Below are positions 2,723 to 9,237 of a stretch of DNA of 22,424 nt, piece by piece. Source of the stretch: a virus. The notes under the pieces were generated by a model. It ran no database searches. It was given only the letters and a program-made list of their open reading frames with translations, and was not told where the DNA came from. The stretch spans positions 1 to 22,424 of IMG/VR virus record IMGVR_UViG_3300009011_000058. The stretch is one strand, 5' to 3'. Position 1 is the stretch's first letter. Each line of letters starts with the position of its first letter. Made by a program: the position numbers and the translations under genes.

Positions 2723-3223
2723 TCACGCTTCGTTGAGACCTAGAGTCAGTTGGAGTTGTTCGCGCCAGTAATCCACACGATTTTCCAAGGAAGGCTTTTG
2801 CCACCGCCAAGCTGAGAGCCCCTTCCCCTGCTGGCTCGCCAGGTCTTTGCGATGCTCAAGCGCTTTGCAGGCATTTTCGAGCTGCTGTCGAGCTCCCAAA
2901 TCCCCATGAAGGATTGAATCGATCTGGAGATCGCACCACACAGCAAATCTGACATCCAGCCACTGCGCAAATCGAACGCCCAGCTTCGGGTGAAGCCAAG
3001 TCCCTCCGTGGTGTCTGCCACGGCGCGTTTCTAAAAGTGATTCAGGATCACAATTAAGAACCTCACCCAGGACCTTCAGATATTGCCTAGTTTCATCCTG
3101 CTTGAGCCAGTCTACCGGGCGCTTTCCGAAGGGACGTGCGATTTCGGTTGCGTTGATCCACCCGTCGGTATTGAAACTAATTTCGTTGCCATCGTAGTCA
3201 AACGGGATGATTGTCGGATTCAT
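2723..3223 (-). CDS. KilA-N domain protein
   Basis: A 166-residue protein. Residues about 1 to 110 match a KilA-N DNA-binding domain: FNTDGWINATEIARPFGKR near the N-terminus, then TRRGRHHGGTWLHPKLGVRF and AQWLDVRFAVWCD. These motifs are shared by phage antirepressors and large-DNA-virus proteins. The remainder (about 110 to 166) is charged and helical with no recognised fold. Its ATG overlaps the antirepressor stop by 4 bases (ATGA), so both come from one coupled transcript. It probably cooperates with, or is an accessory of, the antirepressor; the exact target is unknown. Confidence 0.87.
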   Translation of the reverse strand: MNPTIIPFDYDGNEISFNTDGWINATEIARPFGKRPVDWLKQDETRQYLKVLGEVLNCDPESLLETRRGRHHGGTWLHPKLGVRFAQWLDVRFAVWCDLQIDSILHGDLGARQQLENACKALEHRKDLASQQGKGLSAWRWQKPSLENRVDYWREQLQLTLGLNEA

Positions 3224-4164
3224 GCGACAGCTCTCCCCTCAGACACCTCTACCGCGTAGCGCGTCGGCTGCTGCATCGCAGCCCCCAGGCCGGTCAAGAA
3301 CGAATTCATCTGATGCAATCGGTTTCGCAGGCTGCGAACTTCGTACCAGGCTCCATCGATCTCATAACCGGCCTCACGCAGCTCGCACAGGATCTTCTCG
3401 CACAGTGACAGATCCTGAGGACGCGAGCAGAGGTCGTTCATGCTCACATCAAGCCAGGCATGGCCCATGCCGCGATGCTCAAGCATTTCCATGCGGCGCT
3501 GGGTTAGCGCCTCAAGCGGGTAATGAATGGCCAGCGGTGGCTTGGCTTGCTGCGGGCCGAGGTATTCACCCTCAAGCGCGTAAGACGCGACGAAAGTGGC
3601 AGCGGCTTCAAACTGCGAGCTTGGAATCAGCTCAATGCGCGGCACCCCGAAGCAGGCATGAAGCGCAGACGCAAGCTTTGCCGTAGCGCTGCGCTGGTGT
3701 TCCGAGCTCATCTTGGCTACCCGGCAACGCATGATGTTACTGAGTCGCAAGGCGCCAGGCTTACCGAGGATGTCATCGACCATCGGCACCATGACTCCTT
3801 TTAAGTCTTCGTAGCGACCATGCTTACGGATCGCTGGCAGCACGTCAGAAGTCACCCACTTTTTGAAGCGCTTGGCCTCCGCCTTGCGGCTCTTGAAGAT
3901 CAAGGCATAGAGCCCGGATTCATTCACCACAAGCATTTCCTGGGCGCCTGAGGGGGTATTGACAGTGGCAATACCCTTCTCGTCCTCATCCAGACCGTCG
4001 GTTTCGCGGTCAGCGCGCCCGTTCACGGCGAGGGAGACGTTGCCGATCGCCAAGGACGCGCAAACATCTGCAGCCACAAACCACGGCTGATCATCAATCA
4101 GCAGCGTGCGCACCTGCTGCTTGCCAAAATTGAAAGGGATTACGTTTGTGCTATTATCGCCCAT
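3220..4164 (-). CDS. BRO-N family phage antirepressor
   Basis: A 314-residue protein. Residues about 5 to 110 form a BRO-N domain (RTLLIDDQPWFVAADVCASL, then VVNESGLYALIFKSRKAEAK and RFKKWVTSDVLPAIRKHG), typical of phage antirepressors that inactivate the prophage repressor. The C-terminal 200 residues have no domain I can name. The start is uncertain: ATG 4164 fits family N-termini (MGDNSTNVIPFNFG) and has AGGA 10 bases upstream. ATG 4275, behind a strong GAGGAGGGG within the Arc-like gene, would add 37 residues. I prefer 4164 because a predicted antisense RNA begins exactly there. It lies downstream of the Arc-like gene and is coupled to the KilA-N gene. Function is inferred from family and P22-like context. 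Confidence 0.85.
   Translation of the reverse strand: MGDNSTNVIPFNFGKQQVRTLLIDDQPWFVAADVCASLAIGNVSLAVNGRADRETDGLDEDEKGIATVNTPSGAQEMLVVNESGLYALIFKSRKAEAKRFKKWVTSDVLPAIRKHGRYEDLKGVMVPMVDDILGKPGALRLSNIMRCRVAKMSSEHQRSATAKLASALHACFGVPRIELIPSSQFEAAATFVASYALEGEYLGPQQAKPPLAIHYPLEALTQRRMEMLEHRGMGHAWLDVSMNDLCSRPQDLSLCEKILCELREAGYEIDGAWYEVRSLRNRLHQMNSFLTGLGAAMQQPTRYAVEVSEGRAVA
4130..4157 (+). promoter_or_regulatory. Candidate antisense promoter inside the antirepressor start (Psar-like)
   Basis: On the plus strand TTGAAA (4130-4135) and TATTAT (4152-4157) are 16 bases apart, each matching the sigma70 consensus at 5 of 6 positions. This is one of the best promoter matches seen in the window. It points away from the antirepressor coding sequence and towards the arc-ant junction. 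Confidence 0.6.
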
Positions 4165-4240
4165 GACGTTGTTTTCCTGATCGATGACTGCGTTGATCTC
4201 CGAAGCCTCAGTGTTCCCGCACTGGGGCTTCTTCGTTTTT
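4164..4240 (+). ncRNA. Predicted sar-like antisense RNA, about 77 nt, against antirepressor translation start
   Basis: Predicted from a promoter (-10 at 4152-4157) and an intrinsic terminator whose U tract ends at 4240. The RNA would be complementary to the antirepressor start codon at 4164, its Shine-Dalgarno region and the intercistronic stretch up to the Arc-like stop. In P22, sar RNA is a small antisense RNA over the arc-ant intercistronic region that represses ant translation. Here the position, orientation and size correspond, while no sequence similarity to P22 is claimed. The exact 5' end is estimated from promoter spacing. Confidence 0.55.
4202..4240 (+). terminator. Intrinsic terminator of the predicted antisense RNA
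   Basis: Plus-strand 12-bp stem: GAAGCCTCAGTG pairs with CACTGGGGCTTC across a 6-nt loop (TTCCCG), followed by TTCGTTTTT. One pair is a U-G wobble in plus-strand RNA but a C-A mismatch in minus-strand RNA, so the structure is formed better by the antisense transcript. It also overlaps the arc-ant intercistronic region. Confidence 0.7.
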
Positions 4241-4412
4241 AGGCTTCCGCCTGTTGCCTCTGCATTGCCCGCCATTTCAGCCCCTCCTCGATTAAAAGGC
4301 CAAGCTCGGCATTGAGACTGCGACGGTTGATTCCCGCCTCCTCCTTTGCCTTCTCTTTTAATTCATTCGCAATCCGCAAGCTGTATGCGGGACATTGATG
4401 TGCGCCTTTCAT
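4239..4412 (-). CDS. Arc-like ribbon-helix-helix repressor (57 residues)
   Basis: A short gene with the Arc family pattern: a beta strand (PAYSLRIANELKE), then helices containing RRSLNAELGLLIEEGL. P22 Arc is 53 residues and binds operator DNA with its N-terminal strand; the length here fits. A strong Shine-Dalgarno (GGGAGGAGAG) precedes ATG 4412. It is the first gene of the arc-like, antirepressor, KilA-N operon and faces a second Arc-family gene across a palindromic operator. It probably represses its own promoter and hence the antirepressor. Its 3' end contains a strong GAGGAGGGG followed by an in-frame ATG for the downstream antirepressor frame, so translational coupling is possible. Confidence 0.88.
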   Translation of the reverse strand: MKGAHQCPAYSLRIANELKEKAKEEAGINRRSLNAELGLLIEEGLKWRAMQRQQAEA

Positions 4413-4439
4413 GGCTCTCCTCCCTGGGCTTGTGGATTC

Positions 4440-4468
4440 ATATTGACGTCACACAAATGTGACGTCAA
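4440..4468 (-). promoter_or_regulatory. Candidate promoter of the arc-like/antirepressor operon
   Basis: On the minus strand TTGACG (4468-4463) matches the -35 consensus at 5 of 6 positions, and CAATAT (4445-4440) lies 17 bases downstream as a weak -10. The whole spacer is filled by the palindrome at 4445-4466, so a bound repressor would block polymerase. Confidence 0.45.
4445..4466. promoter_or_regulatory. Perfect palindromic operator in the divergent RHH regulator intergenic region
   Basis: Nine-base arms GACGTCACA and TGTGACGTC are perfectly inverted around a CAAA centre. The site lies between two divergently transcribed Arc-family genes and inside the candidate promoter of the minus-strand one. 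RHH repressors bind such palindromes as paired dimers. The direct repeat GTGGATTC flanks it at 4432-4439 and 4469-4476, and a smaller inverted repeat GATTC-TT-GAATC sits at 4472-4483. Which of the two proteins binds which element cannot be told from sequence. Confidence 0.75.
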
Positions 4469-4486
4469 GTGGATTCTTGAATCTTT

Positions 4487-4516
4487 TTGAATGCACGAAC
4501 AGAATCGCTGTTTAAT
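4487..4516 (+). promoter_or_regulatory. Candidate promoter of the Mnt-like operon
   Basis: Plus-strand TTGAAT (4487-4492) and TTTAAT (4511-4516) with 18-base spacing, 22 bases before the chosen start. An alternative pairing is TTGAAT at 4477-4482 with CAGAAT at 4500-4505 (17-base spacing). Both are moderate matches; some promoter here is expected because the gene is the first on its strand. Confidence 0.4.
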
Positions 4517-4537
4517 ATCATTGCACCTAGGAAACCC

Positions 4538-4978
4538 ATGACTGACCGCCACGTCCTGCCCCCATACTCATTACGGATGCCAGCCGATCTGCGGGAGAAA
4601 CTGGAGACGTCCGCATCAGAGGGTAAGCGCAGTCTCAACGCTGAAATCGTTGCGAGGCTTGAGGCAAGCTACGACTTCATTCCTCAGTCCAGGGCCATAT
4701 CAGCCGAAGACGGCGTTTCAGAGCTCAATGAGCTCTACAGTCAGCAAGCTGCCATTTCTGCATTGCAGATCGCCAAGATTAGAGCCTTGGTCGCCCTGAA
4801 AGCCGAGCTCAATGAATCACACTCCCCAGAAGAGAAAGCGGCCCTGCTTGCTGCATCAACTATTGCTCAGTCTGAAATCGATAGTCTTTCTACCCATAGA
4901 AGCGAACTCCTAAGCGAATATGAAAAGCTCAGGGCAGTACTGAAGCTGAACCAGCGCGCGCCGCGAGAGGAGCAATGA
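4538..4978 (+). CDS. Mnt-like ribbon-helix-helix regulator with long C-terminal helix
   Basis: A 146-residue protein. Residues about 8 to 43 are an Arc/Mnt RHH domain (PPYSLRMPADLREKLE, then GKRSLNAEIVARLEASY), sharing YSLR and RSLNAE with the Arc-like protein encoded on the other strand. The remaining 100 residues are charged and alanine-rich, predicted helical or coiled coil. P22 Mnt tetramerises through a C-terminal coiled coil, though it is only 82 residues. I chose ATG 4538 because AGGAA lies 5 bases upstream; a TTG at 4487 would add 17 residues without a ribosome site. It heads a plus-strand operon running against the late genes, so it is probably expressed in the lysogen to repress the antirepressor operon. 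Confidence 0.85.
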   Translation: MTDRHVLPPYSLRMPADLREKLETSASEGKRSLNAEIVARLEASYDFIPQSRAISAEDGVSELNELYSQQAAISALQIAKIRALVALKAELNESHSPEEKAALLAASTIAQSEIDSLSTHRSELLSEYEKLRAVLKLNQRAPREEQ

Positions 4979-5045: not shown

Positions 5046-5078
5046 ATTCCCACATAAATGAGACATCAAGGAAGAACG

Positions 5079-5291
5079 ATGCGAAAGCTGCGCAGCCGTG
5101 AAGTGATTGGTCTGAGCGTTGATGAAATCCTTCAAGAGTTCAACGAGCGAGCCTCGGAGCTCGACATCACCGAGGAGAACCTGGTATCGGTGAACGTGAA
5201 TCCACCTCGTCACGCACTCCGCATTCTCGACGGAGGTAAGATCAAGGAAGCCAACGTCCAGGTAACCTTCATCTACTGGAGTGAGCGATGA
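5079..5291 (+). CDS. Small unrecognised protein (70 residues)
   Basis: I do not recognise this protein. It begins MRKLRSREVIGLSVDEILQE and ends in beta-like segments (ENLVSVNVNPP, VQVTFIYWSER). There is no signal peptide or membrane segment. ATG 5079 has AAGGAAG just upstream; an earlier in-frame ATG at 5058 lacks one. Its stop overlaps the next start (ATGA), giving a coupled pair in the same strand and probable operon as the Mnt-like regulator. A small acidic-basic pair might suggest an antitoxin or regulator, but nothing specific supports that. Confidence 0.75.
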   Translation: MRKLRSREVIGLSVDEILQEFNERASELDITEENLVSVNVNPPRHALRILDGGKIKEANVQVTFIYWSER

Positions 5292-5575
5292 GCCACATCA
5301 AAGCCCGCGTCGAAGCGCTACGGGAGCTCATCGACGAACTCAAGAATGCTGAAAGTATTTTCGAGCGTGCTGCGCTATTCGCTGCCATTCGGGGCGTTGT
5401 AGAGGACCTCGAGAACGACGAGCAACTCAATGGCTATGCCAAAGAGAAGGCCTTGGGTGTGCGCTGGCACGCTGCCGCTGCACTCGGCTTCGACGAAAAC
5501 AATGGCCACACTGCAGAAGCGCATCGAGTGTGGGCGTACGGGGAAATGAACACGCTCGAATCTGCATACGAATAA
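5288..5575 (+). CDS. Unrecognised helical protein (95 residues)
   Basis: A mostly helical, acidic protein without membrane segments or Cys pairs. Motifs visible: an N-terminal helix (HIKARVEALRELIDELKNAE) and a C-terminal part with WHAAAALGFDENNG and HRVWAYGEMNTLESAYE. Start overlaps the preceding stop by 4 bases. It is the last gene of the plus-strand operon, followed by a clear intrinsic terminator 6 bases later. Function unknown. Confidence 0.78.
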   Translation: MSHIKARVEALRELIDELKNAESIFERAALFAAIRGVVEDLENDEQLNGYAKEKALGVRWHAAAALGFDENNGHTAEAHRVWAYGEMNTLESAYE

Positions 5576-5644: not shown

Positions 5645-6220
5645 ATGACGTTTAACGAAGAAATTTATTACAAGCTCATAGGCCGGGCAGACCTCAAAAA
5701 AGAACTAAACACCCTAATGAATAACACAAAGGACGATGTGCTCGTAATCTTACGAATCCATTTAATGTGTGAAAATCTGCTAGAAGCCTGGATATGTGCC
5801 TCCACTGACAGACCTGAATTTTTCAGCCACCCAGAAGATCTCCGACTAACGTTTAACAATAAACTAGGGATAGCTTACAACCTAGACCTTCCCAAAGCCG
5901 CACATGAATTCTTGGCACAGGTGAACAAAGCAAGAAACGAGTTCGCTCACAATCTTCACAAAAAGACAATCACAAATGGCCTCTCATCAAAACTAGAACG
6001 CATCATAGCGAAGCTTGTGCCTCTCTCCCCCCCAGAAATGCAGATTATGGATGGAGACAGGGAAGTGGATAGCTTAAGGAGCGAATCTACCCCCGAGAGA
6101 TTGAAACTCTGTATGATATTCTTCTTATTCCAAATTTACTTAACAATGAGCAGAACCCCTGCGACTGATAACAATGATTCTACCGAACGAAAAACCGCTA
6201 AAATAAGCTTTACACTATAG
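5645..6220 (+). CDS. HEPN-motif protein, possible antiphage ribonuclease or toxin
   Basis: A 191-residue, AT-rich gene unlike its GC-rich neighbours, suggesting separate acquisition. The N-terminal 120 residues look all-helical. At residues 97 to 102 is RNEFAH, the R-x4-H motif of HEPN domains, preceded by VNKA and by a region (RIHLMCENLLEAWI) typical of MltR/DUF4145-like HEPN relatives. Active HEPN proteins cleave RNA and often act in abortive infection or toxin-antitoxin systems, but some are non-catalytic. The C-terminus has a hydrophobic stretch (LCMIFFLFQIYLTM) that is not clearly a membrane helix. GAGG lies 10 bases before ATG 5645. It is transcribed against the late operon and converges on the unknown pair to its right. 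Function is inferred. Confidence 0.75.
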   Translation: MTFNEEIYYKLIGRADLKKELNTLMNNTKDDVLVILRIHLMCENLLEAWICASTDRPEFFSHPEDLRLTFNNKLGIAYNLDLPKAAHEFLAQVNKARNEFAHNLHKKTITNGLSSKLERIIAKLVPLSPPEMQIMDGDREVDSLRSESTPERLKLCMIFFLFQIYLTMSRTPATDNNDSTERKTAKISFTL

Positions 6221-7539: not shown

Positions 7540-7703
7540 CGCTGACAAATCGCTTCAAGCAAGCTAACCCGCTGCGCAAGATCACTATCAGCAGCAAATC
7601 GCTGGCTCGCTTCACCTCCGAGGCGAGCCTCAAGACTAATCAATGCTTTGAGCGCTTGATCCAGCCCTTTTTCCAGTTCCTCGATTCGTTTAGCCTTACT
7701 CAT
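7536..7703 (-). CDS. Small coiled-coil protein (55 residues) coupled to gpK
   Basis: ATG 7703 overlaps the gpK stop (ATGA) and has GAGAGGA upstream. The product, beginning MSKAKRIEELEKGLDQALKA, is a short amphipathic helix or coiled coil throughout, ending at AICQR. It is the last gene contiguous with the tail operon before the cargo region. Small proteins at this position are not part of the lambda set; function unknown. Confidence 0.72.
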   Translation of the reverse strand: MSKAKRIEELEKGLDQALKALISLEARLGGEASQRFAADSDLAQRVSLLEAICQR

Positions 7704-8485
7704 CGCGTCCTCTCTTGCGGCTTGGCCGCTTCATTCGCGTCCCGATGACGCAACACAAGGCGCGTCCGGTCGAGCCATGGCCCGCCGAACACGATGATTT
7801 CTGATGGCCTGCCGAGCAGGTGGTGCAGCATGAAGGGCCCAGGGCCGAAGACCTCGGCATGCTCCTCCTGCAACTGAGCGGCGGCGCCCAGGTAAATGCC
7901 GGCATGATTTGGGTGAGCCGTACGACCTACGGCCATGACGATCATGTCGCCGCGCTGAGGCTGGCTTACCTGGTAGAAGCCGGCAGCTTCATAGGCCTGC
8001 TCGTAAAGGCTCGGTCCGTCTGCCTGCTCCCACCATCCCTCCTCTCTGGCGTAAGCCGGGAACTCCAGGCCCCACTCGCGCTGGTACCAATCCGCGCAGA
8101 CCTGCCAACAGTCCCAGGCCCCGTGCACAAAAGGCCGCCCCAACAGCGCGGTGTAACCTGTGGGTGTGACGGTGCGAAAGTCGCCCTCCGGCCACGACAA
8201 GATGTACCAAGGCAATCCTGTGGCCTCGCACATGGCGAGGTCGCGGGACGAAGGCCTACTGGTGGCGTCCGGGTGCGAGTGCACGATACCGATTACCTGG
8301 CCTTGGTCCTCGGCGGCCGCATACTGCTCCGGTGAGATGCGGAACTCCTCGGCCGGGTCGGTCGCGGTGTTGTCGCATGGCACGTACTTATGGGAGCGGC
8401 CTGCGGCGATGATCAGCCCGCAGCACTCCCGCGGGTACTCTGCCACAGCGTGCGATTGCACGGCGGCGAGGATGTGTTTGCGCAT
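7700..8485 (-). CDS. K: gpK-like tail tip protein: JAMM metalloprotease plus NlpC/P60 peptidase
   Basis: 261 residues with two domains. The N-terminal JAB/MPN domain has a full JAMM metal site: Glu20 (YPRECCG), then HSH at 69-71, Ser79 and Asp82 in the H-x-H-x7-S-x2-D arrangement. The C-terminal NlpC/P60 domain has a probable catalytic Cys126 (GAWDCWQV) and His194 (HPNHAGIYLG). Lambda gpK has this architecture and acts in tail tip assembly; the peptidase may help penetrate the cell wall. ATG 8485 lies 2 bases after the gpL stop; a longer upstream frame overlaps gpL and is not real. Both active sites look intact. Confidence 0.94.
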   Translation of the reverse strand: MRKHILAAVQSHAVAEYPRECCGLIIAAGRSHKYVPCDNTATDPAEEFRISPEQYAAAEDQGQVIGIVHSHPDATSRPSSRDLAMCEATGLPWYILSWPEGDFRTVTPTGYTALLGRPFVHGAWDCWQVCADWYQREWGLEFPAYAREEGWWEQADGPSLYEQAYEAAGFYQVSQPQRGDMIVMAVGRTAHPNHAGIYLGAAAQLQEEHAEVFGPGPFMLHHLLGRPSEIIVFGGPWLDRTRLVLRHRDANEAAKPQERTR

Positions 8486-8487
8486 TG

Positions 8488-9237
8488 TCAGCTCCGTGAG
8501 ATCAGAGAAACGGCAGGGAAGCCGCCGAAGGGCAACTGGTTGCCCCGGCCAAAGCGAACTGTGCAGCCAGTGTCCAGGCAGCCATTGCACTGGTCCCTGG
8601 CAGGATCGTCCGTGGCTTTTCCGTCGAGGTCGAAGTAGGGGCCGGTGTATCCGCAGTTCGGGCCGCGGTAGCCGGCAGTCATCGCCCAGTGGCACAACTG
8701 GGTCATCTGCCGGCCAATCGTCTCGCCTCCTACATCGCCAGGGCTGGCCAGCTCCCAGGCGACCGTGGTACCGCTCTCCGACACCTTCTGGTCGATGTAC
8801 CAGACCTCGATCGCTTCCTCGGTAGGGTCGGCCTCCGGGTTGCCGGCGGGGAAGTTTGCCGCGTCCAAGTAGCGCGCCATGGTGTGACGCATGGTCAGCT
8901 TGAACTCGAGAAGGTTATCGAACGCGAGGCACAACGCGGTGATCCTGCCGTTGACGTTACCAATGGTCAGTGTGGGTCGCACAGCCGTGCCGTCCGAGTT
9001 CGCCTCAATGCCATCGATCTGCATTGGCCAGGCACCGTACTCGTTGCCCTGCCACCAGATGGACTTGGCCGGCAGTTGGTCCGCGTCAATGCCGGCGGCA
9101 GCCAGTTCCTCTGGGGTGTGCGGGATCGCATGCCCATGGAAACGCAGCGTGTCGGCGCCAAAGTCTGAGCCATCCAGCTCAAACAACAGCACCTCGCTGC
9201 CAGGCTCCAGGCTCTGGATGTCCTTGATCAGTGACAT
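8488..9237 (-). CDS. L: gpL-like minor tail protein (Fe-S type)
   Basis: 249 residues, start ATG 9237 with AAGGA upstream. The N-terminus (MSLIKDIQSLEPGSEVLLFELD) and the C-terminal cysteine-rich domain match lambda gpL. Cysteines lie at 182 (LCHW), 195 (PNCGY), 217 and 220 (QCNGC) and 225. Lambda gpL binds an iron-sulfur cluster through C-terminal cysteines, and the cluster cysteines appear preserved here. It forms part of the tail tip with gpM, gpK, gpI and gpJ. Confidence 0.94.
   Translation of the reverse strand: MSLIKDIQSLEPGSEVLLFELDGSDFGADTLRFHGHAIPHTPEELAAAGIDADQLPAKSIWWQGNEYGAWPMQIDGIEANSDGTAVRPTLTIGNVNGRITALCLAFDNLLEFKLTMRHTMARYLDAANFPAGNPEADPTEEAIEVWYIDQKVSESGTTVAWELASPGDVGGETIGRQMTQLCHWAMTAGYRGPNCGYTGPYFDLDGKATDDPARDQCNGCLDTGCTVRFGRGNQLPFGGFPAVSLISRS

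Follow-up and report, generated by a model that had tools for sequence, protein, structure and literature searches.

The four-gene block at positions 2723-4978 of the window (the whole 22,424-nt stretch of viral DNA analysed here) is very probably an immI-type ("ant moron") switch, placed inside the tail operon of a Pseudomonas siphovirus. A P22 immI-like switch in this setting had been proposed from the letters of the sequence, and that reading is now stronger than when it was made, since a fourth immI element -- a gene for the antisense RNA sar -- is also predicted in the P22 position; the antirepression itself would follow by analogy with P22.

Gene content, setting and candidate operator

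The cassette sits between the lambda-type tail genes K (7700-8695) and I (1165-1785), with the genes for L, M, the tape measure and the major tail protein upstream; this is an insertion into a late (virion) operon, as for the P22 immI (ant moron) region. All of its reading frames are intact. The 22-kb fragment has no immunity region, and a defence-system scan of the neighbouring genes gave no match. A superinfection gene adjoins the cassette; it belongs to the Imm_superinfect family, not to SieA.

As originally described, two Arc-family genes diverge across a palindrome, and the minus-strand order arc-like, antirepressor, KilA-N agrees with Pfam domains and coordinates. The mnt-like gene (plus strand, 4538-4978, 146 aa) diverges from the arc/antirepressor/KilA-N operon (minus strand, 4412-2723), whose first gene encodes the 57 AA Arc-like repressor (4239-4412); P22 immI likewise has two diverging ribbon-helix-helix (RHH) repressor genes, one of them heading the ant operon. 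Both products pass the Pfam Arc (PF03869) cut-off of 20.4 bits, the Arc-like protein with 23.6 bits and the Mnt-like with 36 bits (E=6e-9), and AlphaFold models show RHH helices in both. The best solved-structure fold matches of the Arc-like model in Foldseek are P22 Arc, 1par and 1bdv. The other protein had been called Mnt-like with a long C-terminal helix; the Mnt-like RHH domain stands, at the N-terminus, while its AF2 model (pLDDT 87) carries two long C-terminal helices, not one. Compared with PDB sequences it matched AmrZ, Mnt and Arc, and a fold search with the model returned generic coiled coils only. Its start is most likely the ATG at 4538 and not the TTG at 4487, to judge from an SD-like AGGA and the alignment with the sister locus L033.

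Between the divergent genes, at 4443-4468, is a perfect 26-bp palindrome, TTGACGTCACA-N4-TGTGACGTCAA, with 11-bp arms; in 30 base-shuffles of the region the longest arm averaged 4.4 bp and never exceeded 7. Two related loci (L033 and L179) have identical half-sites around a different centre, and across loci the operator class tracks the beta-strand class of the Mnt protein. By this symmetry and co-variation, the sequence would be the counterpart of the symmetric P22 immI operator, and it is most likely the site of the Mnt-like protein, for which we regard it as the candidate. The TTGACG within it may also serve the arc operon as a -35-like element (TTGACG-N17-CAATAT), though this promoter, Pant, is uncertain because its own -10, CAATAT, is weak.

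The antirepressor gene, ant (minus strand, 3220-4164, 314 aa), has a Bro-N domain (PF02498, 78.3 bits against a Pfam cut-off of 25.6, E=7e-22) and matches phrog_245, anti-repressor Ant. Its reading frame is open from 4275, but a start there, overlapping arc, was rejected, as in several relatives the frame is closed by a stop codon nearer to, or past, the end of arc. We place the start at the ATG at 4164 because it is preceded by a Shine-Dalgarno sequence, TCAGGAAAA, and because its distance from arc is conserved, being roughly equal in 44 relatives (arc-ant gap 62-83 nt; 68 nt in P22). The product is not orthologous to P22 Ant, having Bro-N only, with neither P22_AR_N nor P22_AR_C; the cassette is therefore counted as a variant of immI rather than immI proper. 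The gene behind it (minus strand, 2723-3223) encodes a KilA-N + ORF11CD3 regulator and overlaps the ant stop, so that the two are probably translationally coupled. Domain matches and the K and I flanks thus bear out an antirepressor of BRO-N type, an added KilA-N gene and a lambda-like tail.

The predicted sar-type RNA at the arc-ant junction

The sar gene was missed by the original prediction. The predicted RNA (plus strand, about 4164-4238, ~75 nt, two hairpins) spans the stretch between the start of ant and the stop codon of arc, where its 3' end lies, and it covers the Shine-Dalgarno sequence and start codon of ant; at the sequence level this is the P22 immI arrangement, with sar overlapping the start of ant and ending at arc. 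Among 4227 Rfam families, the best match in the region is to RF00262, over its full length, at 4168-4235, with 25.8 bits against a gathering score of 43 bits (E=0.052 in a 4.5-kb search with all 4227 families; 6e-5 within its own record). The predicted promoter, Psar (plus strand, 4130-4157), reads TTGAAA-16 bp-TATTAT with a TG extension and is the only sigma-70-like match in 3 kb; it lies in ant codons 3-12, housed by the leader MGDNST. A 13-bp terminator hairpin follows at 4202-4231 (plus strand), and then TTCGTTTTTA. The fold of the RNA scores -30.9, compared with -17.1 +/- 2.6 for shuffles. The terminator covaries, with 97.7% paired and 79 double-change cells against 21 in shuffles. Pairing that holds on the sar strand only, through G-U, is seen in 64 cells and on the mRNA strand only in 2, and on account of this asymmetry a structural role for the hairpin in the mRNA was rejected.

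Each of the 45 viral loci in which arc is detectable has the RNA gene, against 0 of 28 control antirepressor loci without arc, though the loci are related and these counts therefore not independent. RF00262 itself matches 37 of the 45 records, the in-locus matches falling at the arc-ant junction, and its 43 bits are reached by none of the 45 relatives. The covariance models work in both directions: the P22-based Rfam model finds the Pseudomonas RNAs, and a model made from Pseudomonas only finds P22 sar at 6022-6094 (annotated 6022-6091; E=9e-6, the E-values of our models R1 and R2 being rough because calibration was shortened). An extended -10 stands at the equivalent position in 48 of 61 distinct loci and in none of 14 antirepressor genes lacking arc; the usual -10 is absent from six loci (L017, L019, L036, L041, L047 and L080). 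Also, six contigs of the L049 type keep sar with no detectable arc. The sar gene is 99-100% identical between some loci in which arc and ant agree to only 50-80%.

When 299 Pseudomonas genomes were scanned with the RNA only, 20 of the 21 new matches proved to be arc-sar-effector units, with BRO-N, P22_AR_N, Rha or ORF6N effectors and RHH or HTH repressors opposite. In relatives a KilA-N gene recurs behind ant. Among the close relatives is locus L090 of Pseudomonas mediterranea CFBP 5447. One R1 match (L196) was spurious and fell on the end of a permease gene. DUF3077 was rejected as an effector other than an antirepressor, since a Rha/ANT antirepressor gene follows it, and Aggregatibacter S1249 and the PAJU2-type phages were rejected as immI relatives, their Bro-N genes having neither arc nor sar. 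At E<=1e-6, R1 found nothing in 368 other sampled gammaproteobacterial genomes, a weak negative given strict filters and a Pseudomonas-weighted model.

Proposed mechanism and alternative explanations

By analogy with the P22 switch (PMC2629481, PMC11016777, PMC13397905), repressor binding, transcription of sar, a translational block and antirepressor action would combine as follows. In the lysogen, Mnt-like protein on the palindrome would hold the arc-ant-kilAN promoter off; upon induction or infection the operon would be transcribed, with Arc damping it. Late read-through transcripts would include ant, since the cassette and the surrounding late tail operon point the same way; sar made from Psar would pair with ant at its Shine-Dalgarno and start codon, leaving the read-through ant untranslated. 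Ant, once made, would bind and disarm the prophage repressor and might act likewise on a resident prophage's repressor.

The hairpin at 4202-4231 might instead be a mere intrinsic terminator against stray antisense transcription, with no regulatory RNA involved, and the conserved part of sar is indeed chiefly the terminator, its 5' half being more variable. We consider this quite improbable, since that 5' half always spans the ant Shine-Dalgarno and start, the extended -10, preceded at 16 bp by a -35, keeps a fixed distance in most loci and is missing from the controls, promoter and hairpin fell into the sar arrangement in 0 of 2000 shuffles, and the RNA is homologous to the experimentally known P22 sar. 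The -10 is also accompanied by a rare Thr codon, ACA, used 46 times in 80 in the leader and 45 in 505 downstream. Also at odds with the RNA is the view, held in the original prediction, that the circuit was assembled independently, an unrelated RHH pair having captured a BRO-N antirepressor and converged on the P22 design. The antirepressor N-domain (Bro-N, as opposed to P22_AR_N) and the tail context are unlike P22, yet sar homology is found in both model directions, phages Kapi1 and PhiR12_1 join Bro-N to P22_AR_C beside a P22-like sar, and P22_AR_N antirepressors follow the arc-sar unit in Pseudomonas. With the RNA shared by descent, independent assembly is unsupported and very unlikely; the comparisons point to common ancestry combined with exchange of modules.

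Decay of the ant moron is known from several P22-like phages (PMC2629481), and the block could be such an ageing or inactive moron, a functionless passenger; its intact frames, the covarying terminator and the operator half-sites retained in L033, although the centre differs, make this highly improbable. It is scarcely credible that the RHH pair forms a toxin-antitoxin-like or partition module with no tie to lysogeny: the PHROG names of the RHH proteins that suggest it include "partition protein ATPase", a name that P22's own Mnt carries in the P22 record, and the genes linked to the pair encode antirepressors rather than toxins or ParA.

Among antisense RNAs P22 sar is a classical example, and the literature found does not describe it beyond P22-like phages. 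We put forward, with only tentative confidence, a further reading in which a widespread modular switch is built around sar as its constant part, the repressors and antirepressors being swapped around the RNA. The 75-bp antisense-RNA gene, its promoter buried in the effector's shared leader, would act as a socket: recombination at the RNA would plug in BRO-N, P22_AR_N, Rha, ORF6N or DUF3077-Rha antirepressors and, likewise, different divergent repressors (RHH, HTH or HTH-RHH). Silencing in trans, of another phage's antirepressor by one prophage's sar, would be possible since identical RNAs occur in unrelated cassettes, which raises the question of whether one prophage's sar does control another's antirepressor. 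The Rha-type cassette of L043, for example, has an RNA 99% identical to that of a BRO-N cassette. The occurrence of sar in many Pseudomonas phages, with several antirepressor families, would make a general mechanism of one known from a single phage, and would offer a reason why antirepressors can lie in late operons without read-through expression; annotators gain a model for an RNA that the Rfam cut-off misses.

Comparison with known systems

The cassette shares with P22 immI a divergent Mnt-type RHH gene, an Arc-type RHH gene heading the ant operon, an operator between them (a candidate here), a sar from ant start to arc stop (as annotated in P22) in the same gene order, a late-operon location and a superinfection gene as neighbour. 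It differs in that ant is Bro-N rather than P22_AR_N/P22_AR_C, a KilA-N gene is added, the Mnt-like protein has 146 aa and two long helices, one palindrome is found where P22 has separate arc and mnt operators, the site is a lambda-type tail operon, between K and I, whereas the P22 cassette precedes the tailspike, and the superinfection gene is Imm_superinfect in place of SieA. The RNA resembles RF00262 in length, two-hairpin form, position, promoter, and terminator and loop sequence; it differs in its sub-cut-off score and in stem letters exchanged by compensating changes.

Kapi1 (a Lederbergvirus and P22 relative, MT813197) and the lambda-like E. coli phage PhiR12_1 (PV340549) likewise have an mnt-like gene, an arc-like gene, sar and a Bro-N antirepressor, in PhiR12_1 located between L and K of a lambda-type tail operon; in contrast to the present phage, their antirepressors end in P22_AR_C, P22's own C-terminal domain, and their sar is of P22 type, far nearer to that of P22. 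Edwardsiella phage GF-2 (NC_026611) has two Arc-like genes, a Bro-N ant and a sar match of 32.1 bits, again within tail genes, but it is a myovirus, with sheath and baseplate genes, and no KilA-N gene was seen beside its ant. Neither the Bro-N type nor the tail location is unique to the present phage. In phage P1, immI (c4/icd/ant) also has an antirepressor under antisense RNA control, as proposed here, although P1 c4 arises by processing of the same transcript and P1 immI has no Arc/Mnt pair.

The proposed switch block and its candidate operator

On the minus strand of the window, a virus record of 22,424 bases, genes for the head-tail connector, major tail protein, tape measure and tail proteins M, L and K lead into the block of interest, which is followed by tail gene I; the original prediction of a P22 immI-like switch lying within a tail operon is supported, with K and I as its flanks. 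Gene and domain content also confirm the two divergent Arc-family genes: an Mnt-like gene (4538-4978, + strand) stands opposite a minus-strand series made up of an Arc-like gene (4239-4412), a Bro-N antirepressor gene, ant (3220-4164), and a KilA-N/ORF11CD3 gene (2723-3223). In structure models, the Arc-like protein has the two helices of the RHH fold, with P22 Arc as its nearest solved structure; the Mnt-like protein has two additional long helices rather than the one proposed. A 191-aa gene of phrog_5483 (unknown function) at 5645-6220 runs in the same direction as mnt and is accompanied by small genes at 5058-5291 and 5288-5575; Pfam and the defence scan gave no match.

The palindrome said to be shared by the divergent genes was found between them at 4443-4468: TTGACGTCACA-N4-TGTGACGTCAA, a candidate operator of perfect symmetry. 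Across the compared loci, palindrome class tracks the Mnt beta-strand: INPFGLR pairs with ACACGrTG...CAyCGTGT whichever of two Arc types is present, YRSQFR with TAGTGAC-N5-GTCACTA, and the PPYSLRMPADLRE of the window with TTGACGTCAC...GTGACGTCAA in its sister loci. This association points to Mnt as the likely reader of the palindrome. The sequence GTGGATTC lies on both sides of it (4432-4439 and 4469-4476) and may form a second operator, since the principal palindrome of loci L041 and L047 is GTGGAT...ATCCAC.

A predicted sar-type RNA at the arc-ant junction

The original prediction overlooked an RNA gene that is predicted here in the position of P22 sar, the small antisense RNA of immI, and that extends the immI-like reading. 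The sole sigma-70-like site in a 3-kb promoter scan is the TG-extended TTGAAA-16-TATTAT at 4130-4157 (+). With a 13-bp terminator at 4202-4231, also on the plus strand, it would yield an RNA of about 75 nt spanning approximately 4164-4238 (+). As an antisense transcript of the arc-ant junction, this RNA would have its 5' end at the ant ATG and its 3' end at the arc stop codon. P22 shows a matching layout: its annotated sar begins at the base preceding the ant start, reaches the final bases of arc and has its promoter within ant. The Rfam sar family, RF00262, which takes its name from P22 sar, ranks top of 4227 families for the region and covers the whole RNA (4168-4235), with a score of 25.8 bits (E 0.052), below the family cut-off of 43. 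Promoter and hairpin occurred in the sar arrangement in 0 of 2000 dinucleotide shuffles, and the energy of the predicted fold (-30.9 kcal/mol) is lower than that of shuffled sequences by about five standard deviations.

With ant as the query, 80 viral loci were retrieved. About half have arc, mostly with mnt too, and the synteny comparison places these mostly in two tail-operon slots, the K-I gap or ahead of the tape measure gene; in L022 the cassette follows tail gene I, a further insertion slot. RF00262 matches 37 of the 45 arc-bearing records, and within the fetched loci its matches lie at the arc-ant junction, save one weak match. In 44 loci the arc stop and the ant start lie 62-83 nt apart, a range that includes the 68 nt of P22. 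The RNA is present in all 45 loci with detectable arc and absent from 28 without it, among loci that are interrelated and in part picked by ant similarity, which the RNA-first scan described below partly answers. The remaining seven of the 80 have the RNA with no arc detected: L015, where the contig end cuts arc, and six near-identical contigs (L049, L050, L053-L055, L059) with a good sar match upstream of ant, no detectable Arc-like gene, and an upstream ORF lacking RHH.

In a 46-row alignment, 97.7% of terminator-helix cells are paired, versus 85.4% in shuffles, and two-sided changes number 79 versus 21. Cells pairing on one strand only number 64 for the sar strand and 2 for the mRNA strand, an asymmetry which argues that structure is maintained for the antisense RNA. 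A covariance model built only from Pseudomonas-type loci recovers P22 sar at E 9e-6, such E-values being rough, as well as the sar of GF-2, PhiR12_1, Kapi1 and one Klebsiella phage.

Of 61 distinct loci, 48 have the extended -10 of the sar promoter at the same ant codons; among 14 antirepressor genes without arc, none does. ACA encodes 46 of 80 threonines in the first seven codons, versus 45 of 505 further downstream. Because Bro-N, P22_AR_N (L178, L187), ORF6N (L186) and some Rha-type (L043, L065, L197) antirepressors carry the same leader, it reads as a promoter footprint rather than a protein property. In L207, a truncated ant leader stands in tandem with a second BRO-type antirepressor, intact and just after it, as would result from insertion of one effector downstream of the start of another.

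RNA-first scan of Pseudomonas genomes

Run alone against 299 Pseudomonas genomes, the RNA model gave 25 matches in 23 genomes, a lower bound, few candidates having been scored per genome. Twenty of 21 newly fetched loci are arc-sar-effector units; the other is a false positive. The effectors are Bro-N, P22_AR_N, Rha, ORF6N, or DUF3077 with a Rha/ANT antirepressor behind it, and the divergent gene is mostly Mnt-like, with an HTH repressor in several. In L199, L200 and L201 (loci L188, L192 and L194), a small DUF3077 gene stands between the arc-sar unit and a Rha/ANT antirepressor, with Cro/CI-like HTH genes alongside in place of tail genes. The divergent repressors of L194 and L197 show HTH_3 and then a weak RHH_1 match in a single chain, possibly a fused HTH-RHH repressor.

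A Pseudomonas prophage in genome G070 (L204) carries an mnt-arc-sar-ant(P22_AR_N)-KilA-N cassette with large, ejection-protein-sized genes on one side and, on the other, a tailspike-sized gene beside an integrase-like gene; going by the size and order of these neighbours, it looks like a cassette in the P22 slot of a podovirus-like layout. Genomes G314 and G259 each have two separate sar-type matches and so are probable polylysogens, a setting where cross-control by sar could occur.

Likely module exchange and relationship to P22

In L006, L064, L043 and L023, sar is 99-100% identical to that of the window, against 61-78% for arc and 52-84% for ant, and the L043 antirepressor belongs to a wholly different family; between L033 and L025, sar is 100% and arc 51-52% identical. 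On these comparisons the 75-bp RNA gene is the most conserved piece and a likely recombination joint, though selection could account for the identity as well.

By analogy with P22, whose Mnt, Arc, sar and Ant serve as the model (PMC2629481, PMC11016777, PMC13397905), Mnt would silence the operon during lysogeny, Arc would damp it during lytic growth, sar would block ant translation, and Ant would antagonise a prophage repressor. Placement in a late operon would leave sar an obvious role, as read-through that begins at the late promoter is beyond the reach of protein repressors acting at the promoter of the operon itself. Beside the KilA-N gene, immediately after it, is a membrane protein gene with Imm_superinfect and zinc-ribbon domains (2145-2810, - strand), parallel in position to the sieA that adjoins immI in P22, yet not SieA.

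Circuits of this type are already known, and published work calls the "ant moron" of P22-like phages highly variable (PMC2629481). Bro-N versions exist in annotated phages, with no sar among the listed features, and no description of sar outside P22-like phages was found in the literature searched, which covers few subscription journals. The sequences support a wider, tentative reading, a possible modular switch centred on sar.
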